From Sporosalibacterium faouarense (GTDB lineage: Bacteria > Bacillota > Clostridia > Tissierellales > VENL01), in assembly GCF_016765695.1 (NCBI RefSeq), contig NZ_JAETGO010000079.1, positions 1-48,501 of the forward strand: a DNA stretch of 48,501 nucleotides, read 5' to 3'. Positions 35,274-46,440 of this stretch are shown one piece after another. A model generated the notes under the pieces. That model was not told where the DNA came from, made no database searches, and saw only the letters and a list, made by a program, of their open reading frames with translations. Each line of letters starts with the position of its first letter. Within the stretch, counting starts at the first letter, position 1. The position numbers were made by a program, and so were the translations under genes.

Positions 35274-36773
35274 TTAATTGTTTTCTAATGCTTTTGATTT
35301 AACTGCTTCATCACTCTTAAGTGCCTTTAATATTGCCCACATTGCGAATATCATTACAAATGCAAAAGGGAATGCAGCAACTATTGAACCTGTTTGTAAT
35401 GCTGTAAGACCACCAGTTAGCATAAGTGTAGCAGCTAATACCGATTGGATAACACCCCAAGTTAGTTTACGAACAGTACCTGGATTTAAGTTACCGTTTT
35501 CAGACATCATACCAAGAACAAATGTTGCAGAATCAGCAGATGTGACAAAGAAAGTACAAAGAAGTACCACTGCAATTGTTGATATTATAGAACCCATAGG
35601 TATCTGTTCCATAATAACAAATAACGCAGTCTCAGTTGTTTGTATTGCTTCTTGAGCTATTCCAAAGTTTTGTAACCCTTCATTTATACCGATACCACCG
35701 AATACAGCAAACCATACGAAAGACCCTAAGGTTGGGGCAACAAGAACACCACCAATAAATTCTCTTATAGTTCTTCCTTTTGAGATACGAGCAATGAAGG
35801 TTCCAACAAATGGAGCCCAAGCTATCCACCATGCCCAATAGAAGATTGTCCATCCACCATACCATGTACTACCACCAAACGGGTCAATCTGGAAGCTATC
35901 TTTTACAACTGAACTTAAATAATCACCTATACCACTAGTAAGTCCATTAATAATTAATACAGTAGGGCCTATAATTAAACCTAATGCAATTAAAACGCCG
36001 CATAATGTAACATTTACATTAGATAGAAATTTAATTCCTTTATCTAATCCAGTTATAGCTGAAATCATGAACAGAACAGTTATAACTGTTATTACTACTA
36101 TTCTTATTAAATTAGTTTCAGGTAGTCCGTATAAGAAATGAAGTCCACTTGTTGTTTGCATTGTAGCCATACCTAAAGAAGTAGCTACGCCTGCAACTGT
36201 TGCAAATATTGCCAAAATATCAATAATCTTTCCTATTGGACCTTTAACTCTTTCCTCACCTATTAAAGGTATGAAAATACTGCTGATAAGACCAGGCTTA
36301 TTCTTTCTAAACTGCATATAAGCCAGTGGAAGAGCTATTATAGTATAGTTGGCCCAAGGATGTAGTCCCCAGTGTAGGAAGGATTTCTTAATAGCGAAGT
36401 TAGCAGCTTCAACCGTTCCCCCATCCATACCTAATGGATTGACAAAGTGGTTGAGAGGCTCTGCAACTCCCCAGAAAACTAAGCCAACACCCATACCTGC
36501 ACTAAATAGCATAGCAAACCATGAGATATTACTATACTCAGGTTTTGAATCATCTGGACCTAACCTTATTTTTCCATATTTACTAAATAACAAGTAAAGA
36601 CAGAATATTACGAAAAGTGACATTGTGATTAAATAAAACCACCCAAAATTACCAACGAAAAAATCAAATGCATCGGTTGTAGCACCTCCGAAGCTATTTG
36701 GAAATATTAATCCCCAACCAACTATTATGGCCACAACTACAAGTGATATAATAAAAACTTGGTTTTTTCTCAT
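35274..36773 (-). CDS. BCCT-family glycine betaine transporter
   Basis: A 499-aa, twelve-helix carrier of the betaine/carnitine/choline family. Signatures: 'MLFSAGMGVGLVFWGVAEPLNHF', the Trp-rich substrate and signature region 'WTIFYWAWWIAWAPFVGTFIARISKGRTIREFIGGV' (read in two overlapping parts), and 'FVTSADSATFVLGMM'. It imports betaine, probably with Na+ or H+. It is the third gene of grdI-grdH-BCCT, 42 bp after grdH, so its main role is likely to feed betaine to the reductase rather than only osmoprotection. AAGGAGGCAGC precedes the ATG. No extended C-terminal osmosensing tail is present. Confidence 0.92.
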   Translation of the reverse strand: MRKNQVFIISLVVVAIIVGWGLIFPNSFGGATTDAFDFFVGNFGWFYLITMSLFVIFCLYLLFSKYGKIRLGPDDSKPEYSNISWFAMLFSAGMGVGLVFWGVAEPLNHFVNPLGMDGGTVEAANFAIKKSFLHWGLHPWANYTIIALPLAYMQFRKNKPGLISSIFIPLIGEERVKGPIGKIIDILAIFATVAGVATSLGMATMQTTSGLHFLYGLPETNLIRIVVITVITVLFMISAITGLDKGIKFLSNVNVTLCGVLIALGLIIGPTVLIINGLTSGIGDYLSSVVKDSFQIDPFGGSTWYGGWTIFYWAWWIAWAPFVGTFIARISKGRTIREFIGGVLVAPTLGSFVWFAVFGGIGINEGLQNFGIAQEAIQTTETALFVIMEQIPMGSIISTIAVVLLCTFFVTSADSATFVLGMMSENGNLNPGTVRKLTWGVIQSVLAATLMLTGGLTALQTGSIVAAFPFAFVMIFAMWAILKALKSDEAVKSKALENN

Positions 36774-36815
36774 TAAGCTGCCTCCTTATTTTAATATAAG
36801 TGAGAGCTGTCTATA

Positions 36816-38129
36816 TTATATTTTTACTGTGAAAACTGTTTGTTCTTTTATATCTGTAGTTAATGCGTCTAGTGCTACTCCAACTCTGTGATAACGTAAT
36901 TTCCATTGTTGTTCTTTAGATGTATCAGGATTTCCTAATGGATAAGGAATAGATATAGTAGGTACAATTTTATTTGAGCCAACTGTTTTAGCAACAGGTA
37001 TTAAGTTGGCCATTTGTACTATCGGGAATCCTGCTCGTTCTATTTCTTTTACGATCGTTGCTCCGCAACGTGTACAGGTGCCTCAGGTCGAAACTAATAT
37101 AACTCCATCAACATTAGCTTCTTTTAAGTATTCAGACATTTCTTTACCCATTCTAGCAGCTTCTGCCTGAGTGGTACCAGTACCAACAGTTGAATAGAAG
37201 TACTCATGAACCTTACCTATTTTTCCTTCTTTTTCATATACTCTTAGAGCATCTAAAGGTAAGATAACATTAGGATCTGCGTCTGCTGCAGCTGGGTCAA
37301 AGCCAGCATGTATAGTTTTGAATTCGCCACTTTTTAATCTCTCCATACTAGAAATATCGTATCTTCCCCATCTAGTTGCTGAAGCTGACTGAATTCTATC
37401 TGGATTATCTACTGGAACTATACCTCCTGTATTGACTAAAGCAATAGTTGCCTTACTTAAATCTTTTATAGGTGAAGCAATTGGAACTCTATCAGCTTTA
37501 GGAATAGGAAGTTCTGTTTCAAACGTTTCCCCATTTAATTTTTTAATAAGCATATCTACAACTCTATCTGATGCAGGAGTATTTGAATCTAACCAAACTT
37601 GATGTCTTATTCCTCTTGGGAAGTATCCCTCATCTTCAGCAGGTAATAGATTTTCATTATTTAATAGCTTATCACCAAACTTAGCTATAGTTTTTATATC
37701 TTTTCTCATTTTAGCTGCACTATGACCACCTTTAAAGATATAAACATCTTTTTTGAACATCTCAACTCCTGGGTTCTCAATATGCATTGATGATATAACT
37801 GGAACTCCAAATTTTTCTTTTACAGCTTTACAAATAACACCACATGCATTTCCGTATCTACCAGCCTGGAATGCAGGTCCTGCAAAGAAAATATCAAATT
37901 CTTTATCTTCTAAAAATCCTAGAATAGTTTCTACGGCTTCATCTTGATTTGATCCCATAAAGTTATCACCACATATTATCGTGTGAGTTACTTGAGCGTT
38001 ATTTAGCTTTTTATCCAACTCAGTTGCAGGGCCAACTAAACCTTCTTTTATCACCGGGGCAAAATCAGCTTTATCTTCTCCACCAATTTGACCAAAAAAT
38101 TGATTTAAATACAAAATAGCCTTTTTCAT
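36816..38129 (-). CDS. grdH: Betaine/glycine reductase component B beta subunit, selenoprotein (GrdH-like)
   Basis: A 437-aa selenoprotein if the in-frame TGA at 37085-37083 is read as selenocysteine (residue 349). The frame continues without break for 88 codons to TAA, giving 'STUGTCTRCGATIVKEIERA' (Sec349-x2-Cys352-x2-Cys355), the active-site motif of GrdB/GrdF/GrdH. The protein opens 'ILYLNQFFGQIGGEDKADF' as in the family. It forms the substrate-specific component with the grdI product and transfers the carboxymethyl group to the Sec of GrdA. Betaine is the likely substrate because a BCCT carrier follows. A hairpin just after the TGA is the probable SECIS. AAGGAGGTG precedes the ATG. Confidence 0.93.
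37056..37085 (-). promoter_or_regulatory. Sec TGA codon and SECIS-like hairpin in grdH
   Basis: On the minus strand, the TGA codon is followed after 12 nt by CGTTGC-GGA-GCAACG, a perfect 6-bp stem with a G-rich apical loop (37070-37056). Bacterial SECIS elements lie directly 3' of the UGA, with a short upper stem and a loop G recognised by SelB. Confidence 0.75.
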
Positions 38130-38141
38130 AGTTTCACCTCC

Positions 38142-39467
38142 TTAAAAGTCCTTCATTGTCTTAGTAGACCATCCAACCACTTGATCTCCACAGAACATAG
38201 CATTATTTTCCATGATTATAGAGCCATCTTCTTTAACAGAAGAACCAAGCTTTTCATCGCCTTCCCATCCACCTGATAATCCATCTCTAGCTAATGATTG
38301 AAGCTCGCCGACAACCGTCTTCATTGGTGGAAGTTTGATAAGTTCTGATACATTACCGCAGGATACAATAGCATCAGCTTTTTCGTCTAATGAAACTAGA
38401 GGCTGAGAAGCTCCATCCCTTCCAGTACATTCATTAGTGAGTCCAACGGTCTTAACACCAGCATCTTCTAGAGCAACAATACAAGCAATAAAGTCAGCAT
38501 CTGGATTACCGTAGCCTTCTTCAGCAACTATTGCTCCATCTGCTCCTAAAGATTTAGCTAATTGTGCAACAAATTGAGCAGATCTTTCTTTCTGTTCGAG
38601 AGCTACATTTAAGTTTGACATTATAACACCTAGGAAGTTTAACGTTTTCCCATGCTCTTTATACAACCTCTTTATTGTGGGAAAATTCTGAAAATCGTAG
38701 GTTGACCATTTTGAAGAACAAGGCATAAAGCTTCCAGAAATCATGGCACCATCTAGAACTTCATTAGGATGCATAAATGTGGGAACCATGTGATTGCAGT
38801 CCCATCCATAGTTAAGATCATTATAACCTGATTCCTCCATTTGAGATTGAGGTTGAAGAACAAGAACCATTGATGGTAAGTTATTGATATCAGTAGACCT
38901 TTTTGTAACTGGATCCAAATCAAAGGTTTCTATTTCTTCAGGCTCTAAATCTTTGACACAACTACCTATATATTCTGACAGCCTCATACCAGCCCATCTA
39001 AGAGCACGATTCTTTTTCTGTTGCTCTCTTTTTTCAAATTCTTCGTTAGTGTCTGCAACTAATACAATGTTCTTGAGCTGAGAATAGTAAGTATATTTAG
39101 CACCTTCTCCACTCATATCTATTAAACCATCTTGAAATCCACCCCAATGTTTTCCAACTACTAAAACACTACATTCTTTTAGGGCGTGAGTTCTACCATT
39201 ACCTACTTGTAGTAACTCTCCAGTTACTCCAGGGAAAACTGGACCTCCTGACACTCTACATCTTGGTTCAATAGCTTCTTTAACAGGAACTAAACGAACT
39301 TCATCACCAGGCTTTACAATTAATAGGTCTGCTTCAGTGATATCTTCATCTTCTTTAACTATAGATAAAGCTTCTTCCTTATTAATTGTAAGAACCCCAT
39401 CTTTAAAGGAAGTAAATTCACCAAAGACAATATCTTTTACGTGAAAATTACCTAGCTCTAAGCGCAT
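38142..39467 (-). CDS. grdI: Betaine/glycine reductase component B alpha, pyruvoyl proprotein (GrdI/GrdE-like)
   Basis: A 441-aa proprotein expected to cleave itself into two chains, with a pyruvoyl cofactor formed from a Cys. By position relative to Cys242 of GrdE (from memory), the likely site is Cys250 in 'AMISGSFMPCSSKWSTYD'; this gives chains of about 249 and 192 residues. The pyruvoyl group binds the amine substrate as a Schiff base or activates betaine. N-terminal 'LELGNFHVKDIVFGEFTSFKDGVLTIN' is characteristic of GrdE/G/I. It is first in the operon with grdH (12 bp apart) and the BCCT gene. AAAGGAGTG precedes the ATG. It could be the sarcosine form (GrdG); the BCCT neighbour favours betaine. 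Confidence 0.9.
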   Translation of the reverse strand: MRLELGNFHVKDIVFGEFTSFKDGVLTINKEEALSIVKEDEDITEADLLIVKPGDEVRLVPVKEAIEPRCRVSGGPVFPGVTGELLQVGNGRTHALKECSVLVVGKHWGGFQDGLIDMSGEGAKYTYYSQLKNIVLVADTNEEFEKREQQKKNRALRWAGMRLSEYIGSCVKDLEPEEIETFDLDPVTKRSTDINNLPSMVLVLQPQSQMEESGYNDLNYGWDCNHMVPTFMHPNEVLDGAMISGSFMPCSSKWSTYDFQNFPTIKRLYKEHGKTLNFLGVIMSNLNVALEQKERSAQFVAQLAKSLGADGAIVAEEGYGNPDADFIACIVALEDAGVKTVGLTNECTGRDGASQPLVSLDEKADAIVSCGNVSELIKLPPMKTVVGELQSLARDGLSGGWEGDEKLGSSVKEDGSIIMENNAMFCGDQVVGWSTKTMKDF

Positions 39468-39506
39468 ATTAACACTCCTTTCTTATTATAAATTATTAAA
39501 TTGAAA

Positions 39507-39562
39507 TGTTACGTATTTAACAATATTGTAACATAATCATGATTACAAAACAATCGTGATTA
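39507..39562 (-). promoter_or_regulatory. grdI promoter with overlapping dyad operators
   Basis: On the minus strand: TTGTTT (39553-39548), 17-bp spacer, TACAAT (39530-39525) with an extended TG. The perfect palindrome TAATCATGATTA (39534-39545) fills most of the spacer, and a near copy AATCGTGATTA (39552-39562) overlaps the -35, 17 bp away. TGTTAC/GTAACA (39507-39512, 39528-39533) flanks the -10. These are likely binding sites for the divergent TetR protein. Confidence 0.6.
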
Positions 39563-39681
39563 TACGATAAATTTATACTATTCAGATTTTTATAAAAATT
39601 ATCTATAGTATTCAATGATTAATTGCATTTATGAATACAAATTTTGTAAATATACTTCAAATAAATTGTTTTAAAAAAGGG

Positions 39682-39697
39682 ATTATGATATCATAAT
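39682..39697. promoter_or_regulatory. 16-bp palindrome upstream of the tetR-type gene
   Basis: ATTATGATATCATAAT is a perfect dyad about 75 bp before the TetR ATG. Its half-site differs from that near the grdI promoter. It may be an autoregulatory operator or a site for another factor. The rest of the ~300-bp intergenic region is AT-rich without other structure. Confidence 0.4.
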
Positions 39698-39770
39698 AAG
39701 AATGAAGAGTACTAAACTCTAGCATAAAGGACATAGGCGAAAATAATAATATGTAGAAGTTGGTGAAAAG

Positions 39771-40421
39771 ATGGAAAAAAAAGAAATTCAGAGAAAAAGA
39801 ATGATGTCTATATTTATTGATGCTGCAGCAAAAATCTTAGAAAATGAGGGTATTGAAGCCATTACTATAAGAAAGGTGGCTAACATAGCAGGGTATAATA
39901 GCGCTACTTTATATAATTATTTTGAAAATATAGACCACTTAGTATTTTTTGCAGCTATGGGATTCATTAAAGAGTATGCATACAATTTAGAAGAGTACAT
40001 TAAAGGTGCAAAAAGTGGGATAGAAAAATACAAATTAATTTGGGAATGTTTCTGTAACTACTCATTTAAGAAACCAGAAGTATATTATGCTATATTTTTT
40101 GCTAGGCTAAATAATTCTCTAGAGGATTATGTAACAGAGTACTATAAAATATTTCCAGAAGAATTAGGGACTCACGGTGAAAACATATCTACAATGCTTT
40201 TAAAACATAATATATATGATAGGGGTAAAACTTCTCTAGAGATATGTGTTAATGAAGGGTATGTAAAAGAAGAAGATATGGAAGAAGTTAATGAGATGAC
40301 ATTACTACTTTATCAAGGAATTCTTTTAAAGGTAATAAATAAAAAAATCGATTCAGCAGAAGCAAGAAAAAGAATTTTAAAATATATTGATCAAACCTTA
40401 AAAGCCTATAGAGTAAAATAA
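39771..40421 (+). CDS. TetR/AcrR-family transcriptional regulator
   Basis: A 216-aa regulator. The N-terminal HTH is 'IFIDAAAKILENEGIEAITIRKVANIAGYNSATLYNYFENIDHLVFFA', typical of TetR proteins; the all-helical C-terminal ligand domain is divergent, as usual. It is transcribed away from grdI and is the obvious candidate regulator of the betaine reductase operon. Betaine or a reduction product would be a logical effector, but this is inference. The ATG at 39771 follows GTTGGTGAAAAG, a modest ribosome site. No clear terminator follows before the GDT1 gene. Confidence 0.88.
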   Translation: MEKKEIQRKRMMSIFIDAAAKILENEGIEAITIRKVANIAGYNSATLYNYFENIDHLVFFAAMGFIKEYAYNLEEYIKGAKSGIEKYKLIWECFCNYSFKKPEVYYAIFFARLNNSLEDYVTEYYKIFPEELGTHGENISTMLLKHNIYDRGKTSLEICVNEGYVKEEDMEEVNEMTLLLYQGILLKVINKKIDSAEARKRILKYIDQTLKAYRVK

Positions 40422-40535
40422 TATAGAATAAGAATATTATAATTAGTTCATGAATTCTATGAAACTTATAAATTGTTTAGCCATTGGAGAGAGATGTATA
40501 TTTGTTTAAGAAATTTGAAACAAAGGAGAAAATAA

Positions 40536-41687
40536 ATGTTTAATGAATTGATAAGTGCTTTTTTCTTTATTTTTGTAGCTGAGATGGGAGATAAAACTCA
40601 AATATTAGCTATGACATTTGCCACGCAATATTCTACGACTAAAGTATTAGCAGGGGTATTTTTAGGGGCATTGTTGAATCATGGTTTGGCGATTATCTTG
40701 GGATCCTATTTAGCAAATGCAATTCCCATGAATACCGTTCAAATAATAGCAGGCATAGCATTTGTTGGTTTTGGACTTTGGGCCTTAAGAGCTGAAGAGG
40801 ATGAAGATGAAGAAAATGCTTCACAGAATAAATTTGGACCAGTATTTACTGTAGCACTGGCTTTTTTTATTGGAGAATTAGGTGATAAGACTCAATTGAC
40901 TGCTATGACATTAGCTACTAGTGCTGATTTTCCAGCATTTATCTTAATGGGAACTGTACTTGGAATGCTTGTAACTAGTGGTATAGGAATATTTATAGGT
41001 AGAAAGGTTGGAGAGAAAATACCTGAAGTAGCTATAAAAACAATTTCTTCAGCAGTCTTTATTTTCTTTGGAACTGTTAAGTTAGTAAGTACTGTTCCTT
41101 CAAACTATATAAATATAATAACTGTCATTATATATGTATTAGTTTTAGGAACTTTTATTTTTATATTAGGAAAGCCAATATTGGAGATGAGAAAATCAAA
41201 GCAAAAAACAGCATTAAAAGAAGTTGCTTCAACATTGTATATTCAAGCGCATCATATGAAGAAAGCTGTAGATGAAATCTGTCTTGGGGAAGAGAAATGT
41301 GGTCATTGTGAAGGCAAGCAATGTTTAATTGGTTTTGCCAGGGATGCATTGGAGTTAGCTGAGAATGAAGAATATATACTCTCGCCAGATTGGGCAAAAT
41401 TACCAACTAAGAATGATGCTAAAGCATTTGATGAAGATAGAATAGTTCATGCTCTTAGTTTATTAGTTGACCATATGACTAGTATAGGGAATTTTCAAGA
41501 TGAAAATTATGTAGTTAATAGAGCCAGAGAAGCACTTGAGAAGATAGCTATTGGCGAAACATTACCTTTAGCGATAACTCTTAATGAGTACATAAAAAAT
41601 ATGAAGAAGAAGGATAAAAAGTTGGCTAAAAAAATAGAAGCTAAAATTATGGAAAATAGAAAAGAAAGGAAAGAAAAAAGAGAGTAG
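40536..41687 (+). CDS. UPF0016/GDT1-family cation transporter with a Cys-containing C-terminal domain
   Basis: A 383-aa protein. The first ~215 residues are a GDT1/TMEM165/MneA-type transporter with the two inverted family motifs E-x-G-D-K-T: 'VAEMGDKTQILAMTFAT' (E16-K20) and 'IGELGDKTQLTAMTLAT' (E114-K118), about six helices, and an acidic central loop 'EEDEDEEN'. Bacterial relatives export Mn2+. The last ~165 residues are a soluble, helical extension not normal for the family, with Cys249-x5-Cys255-x2-Cys258-x4-Cys263 and a Lys/Glu-rich tail. The ribosome site is AAAGGAG. No Mn-type riboswitch is seen in the 114-nt leader. Confidence 0.88.
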   Translation: MFNELISAFFFIFVAEMGDKTQILAMTFATQYSTTKVLAGVFLGALLNHGLAIILGSYLANAIPMNTVQIIAGIAFVGFGLWALRAEEDEDEENASQNKFGPVFTVALAFFIGELGDKTQLTAMTLATSADFPAFILMGTVLGMLVTSGIGIFIGRKVGEKIPEVAIKTISSAVFIFFGTVKLVSTVPSNYINIITVIIYVLVLGTFIFILGKPILEMRKSKQKTALKEVASTLYIQAHHMKKAVDEICLGEEKCGHCEGKQCLIGFARDALELAENEEYILSPDWAKLPTKNDAKAFDEDRIVHALSLLVDHMTSIGNFQDENYVVNRAREALEKIAIGETLPLAITLNEYIKNMKKKDKKLAKKIEAKIMENRKERKEKRE

Positions 41688-41855
41688 GCTTTGGGGGAAG
41701 GACTACTCTCAAAAATATCATATAAAGGGGTCTTTTGATTGGGAATTATTAATATTATACCCACTTATAGAAAAGTTATAACATGAAAATAAAAAATAAT
41801 TATAAATTTTATTTTGCTAAGCAAACACTATATTAAAAATTAATGTTATAGTTAG

Positions 41856-41885
41856 AACCTGCATCCAATTGATGTAGGTTTTTTT
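41856..41885 (+). terminator. Rho-independent terminator after the GDT1 gene
   Basis: AACCTGCATC / GATGTAGGTT (one G-U pair), 5-nt loop, followed by TTTTT. Between 41688 and 42063 I otherwise see an AT-rich dyad ATATATT/AATATAT (41943-41964) inside TTAAGGG...CCCTTAA, and the iadA promoter. Confidence 0.8.
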
Positions 41886-41987
41886 AAAATAGTCATACTA
41901 ATTTTTAAAATAAGAGGATTACATATTAAGGGTTACTCAAGAATATATTTTGTTTGTAATATATAATTCCCTTAAATAATAGGACAG

Positions 41988-41996
41988 TGTTATAAT
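41988..41996 (+). promoter_or_regulatory. Extended -10 promoter of iadA
   Basis: TGTTATAAT is a perfect extended -10 about 68 bp before the iadA start; the -35 region (TTCCCT, 41967-41972) is poor. Confidence 0.45.
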
Positions 41997-42063
41997 TATA
42001 ATAATAGGGTTCACTGAATGAGTATAAGAAAGCTATAAAATATAAATAGAAGGGGGTTGTATC

Positions 42064-43239
42064 ATGATTAAGTTAATAAAAAATGGAGAGATTTATTCTC
42101 CAGATTATCTTGGTAGAAAAGACATCCTTATAGTAGGAGATAGAATAGGATATATAAAGGAAAACATAGATGTTCCTAACGATTTTGTAGACATAGAAGT
42201 AATAGATGCTGAAAATCAATTAGTAGTACCAGGATTTATTGATTCTCATGTCCATATAGTCGGAGGAGGCGGAGAAGGAAGTTATAAAACTAGAACCCCA
42301 GAAATCCAATTAACTGATATAACCAAAGGGGGAGTAACAACTATTATTGGAGTTCTTGGAACCGATGGGACTACAAGAACAATGTCAAATTTACTGGCGA
42401 AAGCCAGAGGATTGGAAGAAGAGGGAATAAGCTGTTGGGTACATACTGGATCATATCAAGTTCCAGTTAGAACCGTTACTGGAAGTATACAAGATGACAT
42501 TATATTAATAGATAAAATCATTGGAGTAGGAGAAATAGCCATATCGGATCATAGGTCTTCACAACCAACTGTTGCAGATATAGCAAAGCTAGCAGCAGAG
42601 GCTAGAGTTGGTGGCATTTTATCTGGCAAGGGTGGCATTATTAATATACATATGGGCTCTGGAGAAAGAAGATTTGATTATTTAGAAGAGATAGTTGAGA
42701 ACACCGAGATACCAATTACACAGTTTCTACCTACCCATGTTGCTAGAAATGAGGAATTATTAGAAGCTGCTATAAGATATGGACAAAAGGGTGGTTTTCT
42801 AGATTTAACAACCAGTACAACTAAGCAATTTTCTGATGATGATATAACAAAATGTAGTAGAGCACTGAGAGAACTTTTAGACAATAATGTTAACATAAAT
42901 AATATAACTTTTAGTTCCGATGGACAAGGAAGTCTTCCAAAGTTTGATGATAAAGGAAAGTTTATTAAACTAGGTATAGGTAAGGTAACTTCGTTATATA
43001 AAGAGGTTAGAGATGCTATTTTAGATGAGAATATTCCAATACAAGATGCATTAAAAGTAATTACTGTTAATCCGGCAAATATTCTTAAACTAGATGGTAA
43101 AGGATATATTGATGAAGACTATGATGCAGATATAGTTCTTATAGATAAAGAGAGCTTAAATATAAAAACGGTTATAGCTAGAGGAAAAGTAATGATAGAT
43201 AATGGAGAAACGCTAGTAAAAGGTACATTTGAAGAGTAA
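42064..43239 (+). CDS. iadA: Isoaspartyl (beta-aspartyl) dipeptidase
   Basis: A 391-aa amidohydrolase that cleaves isoaspartyl dipeptides formed by protein ageing. H-x-H metal site His62/His64 in 'VPGFIDSHVHIVGGGGEG', then His196 ('GIINIHMGSG'), His225 ('FLPTHVARN') and Asp286 ('FSSDGQGS'). Glu157 in 'GVGEIAISDHRSSQ' stands where the E. coli enzyme has carbamylated Lys162, judging by spacing; Glu can bridge the metals instead. Length matches E. coli IadA. AGAAGGGGGTTG precedes the ATG. It fits an organism that lives on peptides and amino acids. Confidence 0.92.
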   Translation: MIKLIKNGEIYSPDYLGRKDILIVGDRIGYIKENIDVPNDFVDIEVIDAENQLVVPGFIDSHVHIVGGGGEGSYKTRTPEIQLTDITKGGVTTIIGVLGTDGTTRTMSNLLAKARGLEEEGISCWVHTGSYQVPVRTVTGSIQDDIILIDKIIGVGEIAISDHRSSQPTVADIAKLAAEARVGGILSGKGGIINIHMGSGERRFDYLEEIVENTEIPITQFLPTHVARNEELLEAAIRYGQKGGFLDLTTSTTKQFSDDDITKCSRALRELLDNNVNINNITFSSDGQGSLPKFDDKGKFIKLGIGKVTSLYKEVRDAILDENIPIQDALKVITVNPANILKLDGKGYIDEDYDADIVLIDKESLNIKTVIARGKVMIDNGETLVKGTFEE

Positions 43240-43382
43240 TTAGATAGATGAAATTAATGTATAAATAATAAATATAAAATTCTCTAATTTCTTATAAATT
43301 TAGTGTTTAATAAACTAGGACTGGGGAATATATAATAATGATAATAAATCTCATTTACGAGTTTGTTATATAAAATTATATA

Positions 43383-43398
43383 TGGTACTTTAGTTGCA
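43383..43398 (+). promoter_or_regulatory. Candidate sigma-54 promoter of the peroxiredoxin gene
   Basis: TGGTACTTTAGTTGCA matches the -24/-12 consensus TGGCAYRNNNNTTGCW at all but two defined positions, with correct GG-N10-GC spacing. A start near 43410 would lie about 58 nt before the ATG. No enhancer site is obvious. No other clear promoter is seen in this ~230-bp gap. Confidence 0.4.
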
Positions 43399-43467
43399 TT
43401 GTTCCAGTATGGGGAGAATGCAGATAGATAAAAGCACTATGATAAACAATTATAAGGAGGAGATATT

Positions 43468-43989
43468 ATGGAAAGATTTGTTGGAAAGAAAGCACCAAAT
43501 TTTAATATGAAAACTGTATTAGGAAATGGTGAAGATTTTAGTGAAGCGAAATTAGACGATTATAAAGGTAAATGGTTAGTAATGTTTTTTTATCCGTTAG
43601 ACTTTACTTTTGTATGCCCTACAGAAATCACAGGATATAGTAAAAGATATGAGGAATTTAAAAAAGAAGGTGCTGAAATATTAGGAGTAAGTGCCGATAG
43701 CGAGCATTCACATAAGGCTTGGATAAATGGAGAATTAGGAAAGCTTAACTTCCCATTAGCATCTGATATGACTAAAACAGTTGCAAGAGATTATGGAGTA
43801 TTAGTAGAAGAAGAAGGGATAGCTCTGAGAGGGCTATTTATTATAGATCCAGAGGGAACTGTTAGATACTCTGTAGTTCATGACTTAAATGTAGGAAGAA
43901 GTGTTGATGAAACATTACGTGTACTTAAAGCTTTAAAAACTGGTGGTTTATGCCCTGTAGATTGGGATGAAGGAAAAGAACTACTATAG
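43468..43989 (+). CDS. 2-Cys peroxiredoxin (AhpC/Prx1 type)
   Basis: A 173-aa thiol peroxidase reducing H2O2 and organic peroxides. Peroxidatic Cys50 in 'YPLDFTFVCPTEITGYS', resolving Cys162 in 'KTGGLCPVDWDEG', and 'VSADSEHSHKAW' plus 'LRGLFIIDPEGTVRY' are typical of the Prx1/AhpC group. Both are cysteine; there is no TGA Sec codon, unlike some selenoprotein peroxiredoxins of amino-acid-fermenting clostridia. No AhpF reductase gene is adjacent, so thioredoxin or another NADH-dependent reductase must supply electrons. AAGGAGGAG precedes the ATG. Confidence 0.94.
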   Translation: MERFVGKKAPNFNMKTVLGNGEDFSEAKLDDYKGKWLVMFFYPLDFTFVCPTEITGYSKRYEEFKKEGAEILGVSADSEHSHKAWINGELGKLNFPLASDMTKTVARDYGVLVEEEGIALRGLFIIDPEGTVRYSVVHDLNVGRSVDETLRVLKALKTGGLCPVDWDEGKELL

Positions 43990-44053
43990 AATATAGAAGT
44001 TGATTTTTATAGTTCCATATAAAAGGTATAAATTCATAAGTAAACATATAGTG

Positions 44054-44084
44054 AAATAACCAGTGGAAAATCCACTGGTTATTT
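44054..44084. terminator. Terminator between the peroxiredoxin gene and nqrF
   Basis: AAATAACCAGTGGA / TCCACTGGTTATTT, perfect 14-bp stem with an AAA loop, followed on the plus strand by TAATTTTG. It separates convergent genes. Confidence 0.8.
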
Positions 44085-44109
44085 TAATTTTGAATTTTAT
44101 TTATTAAAA

Positions 44110-45210
44110 CTATTCAAACTTATCATAGTAAATTAAATCTTTGGGAATTCCTTTATTCGTAAGGATATCTACTACTGAGTCAATCATCCTAGGACTTCCA
44201 CATAAGTAAGCTTCTTTATTGCCGCCATTTTCTAAATATTTTTTCAATGAATCAGTAACTCTACCCTGTTCTCCATCCCAGCCATCTTCTTCAGTAGCTC
44301 TAGATAAGCAAGGGATAAATCTAAAGTTTGGTAACTCTTGTTGAAGGTTTTCAAGTTCATCCATAAAGAATAAATCCTCTAAATGTCTAGCTCCAAAGTA
44401 GAAGGTTGCCTTTCTATTTATATTCTCAGCTTTCATGTAATTTAATATTGCTAAGATTGGAGCCATACCTGTACCAACACCTACCATAACCATTTCTCTA
44501 TCATTATCATGATAGTAGAAATCACCATAGGGTCCATTGAAAACTACATTATCCTTTTCATTTAAAAATTGATGTACATAAGTAGTACATATACCGTTAG
44601 GAACATATCCAATTATAAGCTCTATATGTTTAGTGTCAAAGGGGGAAGATGCTATTGAATATGCACGGTAAACCTCTTCGCTATTTCCCTTGTATTTTGG
44701 AGCTTTAAGTTGTATATATTGACCTGGTTTAAAATTGATTTCTTCATCATCAGGAAGTTTAAATCTTAGATGCTTAATAGTAGGCGTTACATCCTTTATA
44801 TAATCAACATTTGCATCATATTCTTTAACACTAAATAATTCTTCTGGAATTTCTATTTTTATATTTTCTTTAACCTTACATTGACAAGATAGTCGTACAT
44901 TATTTTTCACATCATCATCAGTTAGATAGCCTAGCTCCGTTGGTAATACAGGACCTCCACCTTCTATTACCTTGACTTTGCAGTATCCACAGCTCCCTTT
45001 ACCTCCACAGGCTGAAGGGATAAAAATTTTATTTTCTATAAGAGATGATAATAATGTGTCTCCGCCGTCAACAACATACTCTTTATCATCATTTATTGTA
45101 ATATTAACTTCACCATAATTTGCTATAGTACGATTAGCTAAAGATAATAGAAAAGCTAATATACCAGTAATTGATGAAATTGTACCTACTGTAATTAATA
45201 TAGTACCCAT
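44110..45210 (-). CDS. nqrF: Na+-translocating NADH dehydrogenase subunit F
   Basis: A 366-aa NADH-oxidising subunit of Na+-NQR. An N-terminal membrane helix (about 5-25) is followed by a plant-type [2Fe-2S] domain with Cys68, Cys74, Cys77 and Cys109 ('SACGGKGSCGYCKVK', 'RLSCQC'). Then come an FAD domain ('RAYSIASSP', 'FNGPYGDFYY') and an NAD(H) domain ('VMVGVGTGMAPILAIL', 'YLCGSPRMI'). It passes electrons from NADH through FAD and 2Fe-2S into the membrane subunits. It is the last gene of nqrBCDEF, 10 bp after nqrE. The vertebrate-like ferredoxin-reductase layout is unlike RnfB/RnfC, so the complex is Nqr rather than Rnf. Confidence 0.94.
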   Translation of the reverse strand: MGTILITVGTISSITGILAFLLSLANRTIANYGEVNITINDDKEYVVDGGDTLLSSLIENKIFIPSACGGKGSCGYCKVKVIEGGGPVLPTELGYLTDDDVKNNVRLSCQCKVKENIKIEIPEELFSVKEYDANVDYIKDVTPTIKHLRFKLPDDEEINFKPGQYIQLKAPKYKGNSEEVYRAYSIASSPFDTKHIELIIGYVPNGICTTYVHQFLNEKDNVVFNGPYGDFYYHDNDREMVMVGVGTGMAPILAILNYMKAENINRKATFYFGARHLEDLFFMDELENLQQELPNFRFIPCLSRATEEDGWDGEQGRVTDSLKKYLENGGNKEAYLCGSPRMIDSVVDILTNKGIPKDLIYYDKFE

Positions 45211-45220
45211 TCTATCACTC

Positions 45221-45808
45221 CTATTGTATTTGAACTATACCGGAAAATCCTATAAAAGCTAATGCCATTAAACCAGTAACAATTATTGTGATTCCGGGAC
45301 CTTCCAATCCTTTTGGAACTTTAGCATACTTTAGTCTTTTTCTAATGCCTGCCATAGCAACAATAGCTAGAGTCCAGCCTACACCTGAACCAAACCCAAA
45401 TAATAAGGATTGAAGCATATTATATTCTCTAATTACCATGAATAAGGAAACCCCTAAGATAGCACAGTTTACTGTAATAAGGGGAAGAAATATTCCCAAA
45501 GCATAGTACAAATTAGGTAAATATCTTTCAACAATCATTTCCACAAGCTGAACAAAAGCTGCTATTGTAATAATAAAGACTATAAATCTAAATGATTCTA
45601 ATCCCAGTGGCTCTAATACATGGTGATAAATAACATAGTTTAGCACAGTTGTAAAAGTTAGAACAAAAGTAACTGCCTGACCTAAACCAAGAGAAGTTTT
45701 TATTTCACTTGATACTGCTATAAAAGAACACATACCTAAAAAATTGGTTAAAATTATATTATTAGTAAAAATGGCTGCAAATAAAATAACAACTGGATTT
45801 ATTTCCAT
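45221..45808 (-). CDS. nqrE: Na+-translocating NADH dehydrogenase subunit E
   Basis: A 195-aa membrane subunit with six helices, homologous to RnfA. Cys27 in '[14 protein letters not shown]' and Cys115 in '[13 protein letters not shown]' are the conserved residues that, with those of NqrD, hold the intramembrane iron centre. '[25 protein letters not shown]' and '[20 protein letters not shown]' are family blocks. The start overlaps the nqrD stop by one base (TAATG). Length matches Vibrio NqrE (198). Confidence 0.94.
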
Positions 45809-46440
45809 TAGGCTTTAGCCACCTCCTGTTTATTGCTTTCTTCATCTTCTGGGGATAAAGATCTAGCAACCCAAATCACTATACCTAGCATAAAGAATGC
45901 TCCAGGTGCCATAATCATTACTATCCAATTTGTCCACCAAGCACCTAGCACTTGAATTCCAAATATACTTCCAAATCCCAATAACTCTCTAAAGAAAGCT
46001 ATAATTAATAATATTATTGCATATCCTGTTCCCGAGGCTACACCATCTAAGAAGGCATAAATAGGTGGGTTGTTTTGCGCATATGATTCGCATCTTCCCA
46101 TGATAATACAATTAGTAATAATGAGTCCAACATACGGACCTAATGCTTCGCTCATCTCAGGATAATAGGCCTTTAAGAAAATATCCACAATAATAACAAA
46201 AGAAGATATAATTAGAACCTGAACCATCATTCTTATATGCTTGGGTGTAAACTTTCTTATAAGAGAAACAGTTAACTCAGAGAAAGATGTAACAAAGATC
46301 AATCCTAGTCCCATTACAAGAGAATTAAGCATAAGATTAGTTACGGCTAATGCCGAGCAAATACCTAGTATTTGTCTAAATATAGGATTATCTCCCCATA
46401 CCCCAAGGGTAAATATTTTTCTAACCTTAGTATTGTCCAT
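45808..46440 (-). CDS. nqrD: Na+-translocating NADH dehydrogenase subunit D
   Basis: A 210-aa six-helix subunit, homologous to RnfE and inverted relative to NqrE in the membrane. Conserved Cys28 in '[14 protein letters not shown]' and Cys111 in '[16 protein letters not shown]' pair with those of NqrE around the iron centre. '[32 protein letters not shown]' is characteristic. GGAGGTTAATCTAG precedes the ATG, which lies within the end of nqrC (14-bp overlap). Confidence 0.94.

Follow-up and report, generated by a model that had tools for sequence, protein, structure and literature searches.

A GDT1-family transporter carrying a C-terminal four-cysteine domain that recurs as a stand-alone protein, often beside rubrerythrin genes

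We analyzed a 48,501-nucleotide stretch of Sporosalibacterium faouarense DNA (the window) and found that one of its genes encodes a 383-aa protein which is, on the evidence of its sequence, a GDT1/UPF0016 transporter extended by a soluble tail. The tail is fused to the transporter in many relatives, keeps the same four cysteines in them, and has stand-alone relatives with gene neighbours of their own. From profile searches and its two settings, we regard it as a real, separate domain that is absent from the family libraries searched. Our favoured reading, held tentatively and at somewhat less than even odds, is that the protein exports Mn2+ and that a cytosolic domain with a four-cysteine metal site tunes this export to cellular redox or metal state. 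The coordinates of the relevant features are collected in Table 1.

Table 1. Features of the fused gene and its surroundings, in window positions.
Feature	Position	Strand	Basis
TetR-type regulator gene, upstream of the fusion	39771..40421	+	PF00440
GDT1-family transporter with C-terminal Cys4 domain, 383 aa	40536..41687, stop included	+	ORF; Pfam GDT1
First GDT1 repeat	40554..40775	+	PF01169, E 1.7e-23
E-x-G-D-K-T of first repeat, residues 16-21	40581-40598	+	
Second GDT1 repeat	40848..41072	+	PF01169, E 1.5e-18
E-x-G-D-K-T of second repeat, residues 114-119	40875-40892	+	
Seventh long helix, residues 194-221, linking transporter to tail	41115..41198	+	AlphaFold2, pLDDT 88-97 over residues 191-220
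C-terminal helical domain, residues 217-383, no described family	41184..41684	+	Profile searches; fused and alone occurrence
Four-Cys set C1: C249, C255, C258, C263	41280..41324	+	Conservation among fusions
AhpC/TSA peroxiredoxin, possible functional neighbour, downstream of the fusion	43468..43989	+	PF00578

The transporter part matched Pfam GDT1 (PF01169) in two stretches with 137.2 bits, against a gathering cut-off of 27, and its two repeats occupy residues 7-179. Both E-x-G-D-K-T motifs reported by a first-pass annotation of the window are present. Their columns were followed through an alignment of 48 fusions, made of the window protein and 47 others (L139 being cut at its C-terminus, and N-terminally cut fusions and L153 being excluded). 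In the first motif, E16 occurred in 47 rows, with one gap, while G18, D19, K20 and a T or S at position 21 occurred in all 48; in the second, E114, D117, K118 and T119 occurred in 48 rows and G116 in 47. A PF01169 search of the window's genome found no second GDT1 gene. Scanning the 48 fusions against family libraries returned GDT1 in all 48, TauE in 43 and other families in 1 to 4 members each. In the window protein the TauE/SafE match stayed below its gathering score (24.5 bits versus 32.6), and identity as a TauE/SafE exporter was rejected on that score. Among PDB sequences, no solved structure related to the transporter was found.

An AlphaFold2 model built on the alignment of 48 fusions (mean pLDDT 85.5, pTM 0.80) displayed helices and an acidic loop, the latter also seen in the charges; the GDT1 family is built from two inverted sets of three membrane spans with an acidic loop between them. 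After the two repeats, the model places a long helix at residues 194-221, a stretch that is also hydrophobic by sequence. Soluble helices follow it. The membrane domain proposed in the first-pass annotation holds up, except that its count of six helices had overlooked the seventh. Because of this extra hydrophobic helix, the soluble tail begins near residue 217, so that a soluble domain of about 165 residues indeed follows the transporter (residues 217-383). Structure prediction, which had been suggested as a check, gave a helical tail and an additional membrane helix. Two unfused GDT1 proteins of the same order (L214 and L215) end shortly past the stretch matching this helix. The loop with C255 and C258 (pLDDT 65 over residues 251-260) was modelled with less certainty than most other regions. 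Charges are distributed as an acidic loop at residues 83-101, a K/R-rich loop at 156-165 and a K/R-rich start of the tail. Provided that the central loop faces the cytosol, as stated in a GDT1 review (PMC7380456), these charges place the tail in the cytosol as well, and we infer that the tail probably lies on that side.

The tail had been described as resembling no nameable domain, and library and structure searches agreed, giving no convincing match in Pfam, NCBIfam or the PDB. Used alone, it had no match in Pfam at E up to 1 and a single match, far under the cut-off, in NCBIfam. Searches of both libraries with 37 stand-alone members gave scattered weak matches in 1 to 4 members each, with best E-values of 0.00092 (NCBIfam) and 0.002 (Pfam). 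PDB sequence searches gave nothing better than E 0.015. With Foldseek, neither a stand-alone model nor the full model matched anything at E up to 0.001, and a second fold comparison returned weak helical matches alone (best Z 4.0); these fold searches support neither a known nor a new fold. A literature search, with subscription journals mostly outside its reach, found no paper on the tail domain.

The sole cysteines of the window protein are those of set C1, which form, at residues 249-263, the C-x5-C-x2-C-x4-C motif noticed earlier. In the order sampled, 57 long fused GDT1 ORFs are known (54 genomes, second copies in G045 and G054, and G005), and all of them were read except those of G097, G120 and one G054 copy. 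Each of the 54 ORFs read had at least four cysteines past residue 200, exactly four in 43 of them, which rules out a chance motif; the first-pass annotation had itself made its reading depend on such conservation. The exact spacing was kept in 52 of the 54, with L061 and L062 deviating by one residue in one spacer. A histidine pair at residues 239-240, also pointed out earlier, is present in the window protein. It was rejected as a pair of metal ligands, since both columns vary across the 48 rows (K 12, H 11, N 7, R 5 and Q 4 at 239; Q 11, R 6, K 6, E 5 and V 4 at 240). Two known site types were likewise rejected. A rubredoxin-type Fe(Cys)4 site consists of two CxxC knuckles, and C1 holds one. 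A CCHC zinc knuckle follows the pattern C-x2-C-x4-H-x4-C; the window protein has no cysteine outside C1, and the stand-alone relatives have C-x2-C-x3-H-x3-C.

This latter pattern is a second set, C2, which the stand-alone proteins carry in addition to C1. We counted the C1/C2 residues in rows that were not selected by cysteine pattern, although they were found with tail queries containing the motif. Of 62 such fused rows, 56 had 4/0, one had 4/1 and two had 4/4; L222 had 3/4, with its fourth cysteine at a different spacing, and both L221 and the short tail L212 had 0/4. Among 25 stand-alone rows, nineteen had 4/4, four had 3/4 (L040, L041, L226 and L227, each with four or five cysteines there at other spacings) and two had 0/4; the latter (L090_3025 and L225) are short ORFs, and the full ORF of L090_3025 (L224) has C1. 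A further set came from a DNA scan with the cysteine pattern, which gave at least 115 loci, 94 of 115 being confirmed by profile and 21 of 115 having no domain match. Because loci were picked in this way, the cysteine conservation in the alignments built on them, including that of the 48 fusions, is partly by construction, and our conservation counts were taken from the 54 ORFs and the unselected rows above. The 35 pattern-chosen fusions are unbiased with respect to C2, and 33 of them had 4/0, one 4/1 and one 4/4. Of 37 pattern-chosen stand-alone rows, 33 had 4/4, the rest being two with Glu for His, one cut ORF and L122. Fusions therefore retain C1, C2 or both, each set being nearly all-or-none, and the simplest reading would be a pair of four-ligand sites independent of each other, one of which the window protein retains. 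We also observed GDT1 proteins of 239-302 aa (L210-L213). The tails of L210, L211 and L212 are shortened to the apparent second half of the domain, with a CxxC group in L210 and L212 and not in L211, and L213 has no clear tail; the four could represent a gradient of domain decay. L211 and L212 are shorter tails of another family.

A tail search detected the domain in 58 of 150 genomes of the order, and at least 54 of those 58 carry it in a frame 340 aa or longer, that is, fused. With GDT1 present in 90 genomes (the count using the best GDT1 match in 89 of them, and G021 having a split GDT1), the tail is fused in at least 54 of 90 GDT1-positive genomes, and the view that GDT1 proteins mostly stop where the membrane domain does fails in this order. 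The search of the 150 genomes missed a divergent fused tail with the same cysteine spacing in G005. In a sample of the phylum, the domain was found in 56 of 398 genomes, mostly in short frames. A single tail used as query against genome contigs found no relative. The profile search with the tail alone, proposed earlier as a way of telling whether the domain occurs fused or by itself, recovered both forms. Carriers among the matches listed include Tissierella, Anaerosalibacter, Thermotalea, Geosporobacter, Peptoclostridium and Clostridium, MAGs labelled Bacilli, Izemoplasma, Mycoplasmatota and Limnochordia, and a MAG labelled Tissierellales (L204). L204 shares the motif of G010, a genome of the window's family, which makes that order the probable origin of the window. 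The stand-alone form has about 150 aa, and the window's own genome holds both forms, with its stand-alone copy (G000:C12:52040-52417) located before a rubrerythrin.

In a tree of 123 domains (83 fused and 40 called alone), whose data took in the C2 columns, 38 stand-alone rows formed one group (support 97/98) and 77 fusions together with L122 formed a second, weakly supported one (93/90). L122, counted as stand-alone in the set and neighbour counts, is probably a fusion cut by the end of its contig. Six fusions (L083, L100, L180, L218, L221 and L222) fell nearer the stand-alone group, L221 being joined to L227, a long-branched stand-alone row. About three changes between fused and alone suffice on this tree, and the all-or-none set counts thus represent few independent events. 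By search and tree the two forms are the same domain and would share ancestry; a single fusion event followed by loss of C2 would be consistent with these data. The unfused L214 and L215 come from families that also hold fusions and look as if they were GDT1 proteins whose tail was lost.

The neighbours of the stand-alone genes are often redox genes. A rubrerythrin gene lies directly downstream on the same strand in 26 of the 53 stand-alone genes with room for one, and is absent from that place in the other 27, L122 among them. Among 28 rubrerythrins next to stand-alone genes (room not required), 20 have no cysteine and none has a CxxC, so that none contains a rubredoxin domain. In the window's own genome, the stand-alone two-site protein is followed by a 142-aa rubrerythrin (L002:1348-2365, G000:C12), and the two are a candidate redox pair. 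Elsewhere, stand-alone copies adjoin or overlap a nitrite/sulfite-reductase-like gene of 236-238 aa (L090 and L091), which would be a second kind of partner, and the stand-alone gene of L040 neighbours a flavodoxin-fold gene. No constant neighbour was seen in many of the stand-alone loci of Lachnospiraceae and Clostridium.

Around 92 fusions, 68 of them with at least 1 kb of sequence on both sides, no rubrerythrin was found within 2 kb. A peroxiredoxin lies within 3 kb of the fused gene in 8 of 92 fusions of other genomes, as it does in the window; the link is weak, since the window's genome has six AhpC-TSA genes and the fusions near a peroxiredoxin are related to one another. Judging from its position, the upstream TetR-type regulator could possibly control the exporter. 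The order TetR, GDT1-tail, amidohydrolase is kept in the three genomes of the window's family; a TetR-like gene lies upstream of the fusion in L045, with one gene inserted between, and in L048. Recurrent flanking genes of the fusions, which we take to be CheW-like and histidine-degradation genes, look like lineage synteny. PerR-like boxes, counted at up to 3 mismatches with a pattern that we assume to be the consensus, occurred at 21 of 58 stand-alone genes (14.4 in shuffled sequence) and 23 of 91 fused genes (17.4), which is not convincing. Further upstream, at 37045-38129 on the minus strand, the window contains a SECIS_4 element (RF01990, 55.4 bits) directly behind an ORF that ends there. 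The ORF resembles a glycine/sarcosine reductase selenoprotein; given the element and this likeness, its stop is probably a selenocysteine codon and the gene longer than the ORF.

Evidence on the substrate came from the leaders of the fused genes. Of 91 fused genes, 27 had the core of the manganese riboswitch, GGGAGTAG, in the 450 nt before them, where 0.5 were expected; the same was true of 2 of 27 unfused GDT1 genes (L214 and L215) and of 0 of 58 stand-alone genes. Matches to the manganese riboswitch model RF00080 at E up to 0.05 preceded 9 of 33 fused loci, all below the gathering score (best 40.9 bits versus a cut-off of 45), and 0 of 7 unfused or short-tailed loci; a further match precedes the unfused GDT1 of G024. 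At the Rfam gathering score, RF00080 was absent from window positions 36000-46000, from 22 fused and from 20 unfused loci. The window's own fused gene has neither an RF00080 match nor the core element upstream, and its genome has no RF00080 match at E up to 1e-3. Riboswitch-like leaders of fused genes (e.g., L015:686-783) scored 25-41 bits, under the cut-off of 45, and a short variant may escape the Rfam model. A Mn riboswitch upstream of bacterial GDT1 members is reported in PMC7380456. The core upstream of many fused genes indicates that many fusions are very probably Mn2+ exporters, which indirectly supports Mn2+ as the substrate of relatives of the window protein; members of the GDT1 family transport Mn2+ and/or Ca2+.

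These observations can be assembled into a mechanism. The GDT1-family protein, a secondary transporter, would most likely export cytosolic Mn2+ in exchange for protons, with a cytosolic helical domain hanging behind the seventh membrane helix. The four tail cysteines (C249, C255, C258 and C263) would together bind one metal at a putative four-ligand site, which Zn2+, Fe or an Fe-S cluster might occupy. As a sensor or gate, the domain would make export follow cytosolic redox or metal state; peroxide damage to the site might, for example, slow Mn2+ export. Its ancestry would be shared with the stand-alone two-site protein, often encoded beside rubrerythrin. That the site gates export by redox state is a guess on our part. 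Such a brake would be sensible, because a V. cholerae mneA mutant is reported to contain more Mn and to be more resistant to peroxide (PMC7380456). Counting against the proposal, unfused GDT1 proteins work without a tail domain, and two families with fusions also include GDT1 proteins that lack it. Further points against it are the missing riboswitch at the window's gene, the sub-cut-off scores at all fused genes, the presence of the element before some unfused GDT1 genes, the uncertain model around C1 and the absence of rubrerythrin beside fusions and beside 27 of 53 stand-alone genes.

The strongest competitor, to which we give about one chance in three, is a structural Zn2+ site that merely holds a small helical domain together, whose role would be assembly, stability or partner binding with no sensing. 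The four cysteines are a compact set in a short stretch between helices, they persist in the two of 54 ORFs in which a spacer shifts by one residue, as a structural site would tolerate, and either set can be lost while the remainder of the domain is still recognisable. Against this stand the neighbours of the stand-alone relatives, often redox genes, and the many carriers from anaerobic groups, in which Fe-S sites are frequent. We consider a purely structural zinc site nearly as likely as the gating reading.

A more doubtful reading, though worth setting out, makes the domain a redox module whose metal sites, one or two in number, are labile to oxidants. On its own, it would be the electron donor or partner of a rubrerythrin that lacks a rubredoxin domain; fused, it would link Mn2+ export directly to peroxide or iron levels in the cytosol of an anaerobe and hold Mn2+ back under oxidative stress. 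A metal-free thiol switch, in which oxidation to disulfides changes transport, seems unlikely: the CxxC within the set (C255-x2-C258) and the rubrerythrin and peroxiredoxin neighbours of the domain family speak for it, but four cysteines kept jointly and a second set of three cysteines plus a histidine in relatives fit a four-ligand metal site better. The least probable alternative makes the tail a metal donor or buffer, handing metal to the transporter or taking it from cytosolic proteins, as might be suggested by the attachment of a soluble, putatively metal-binding domain to a metal exporter, but four-Cys ligation suits Zn, Fe or Cu better than Mn2+ and no transfer path is evident in the sequence.

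Returning to the favoured reading of a metal-site domain that tunes Mn2+ export, the window protein can be compared with known systems. Like other GDT1/UPF0016 members (MneA of Vibrio cholerae, SynPAM71, Gdt1p and TMEM165), it has two E-x-G-D-[KR]-[ST] repeats and an acidic central loop; unlike them, it adds a seventh membrane helix and a Cys4 domain of about 165 aa. Word searches of the text available for PMC7380456 and PMC4067407 found no use of "cysteine" in either, nor of "fused" in PMC4067407. The stand-alone protein has the same C1 set as the tail, whereas it carries the extra C2 and no transporter. The rubredoxin-like domain of classical rubrerythrins also couples a Cys4 site to rubrerythrin, but it has two CxxC motifs compared with one in C1, and the two show no sequence match. 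Rubrerythrins, which scavenge peroxide, are also described without this domain in PMC5114695.

Taken together, a domain family absent from the libraries searched, with conserved four-ligand sets, occurs in Clostridia and related groups in two settings, namely within a probable manganese exporter and alone, often beside rubrerythrin. In the part of PMC7380456 available, the control described for GDT1 proteins acts on their expression and abundance, and calcineurin is said to affect yeast Gdt1p. If the site does sense redox or metal state, a sensor within the GDT1 transporter itself would here control the protein, and Mn2+ would be tied to peroxide defence.
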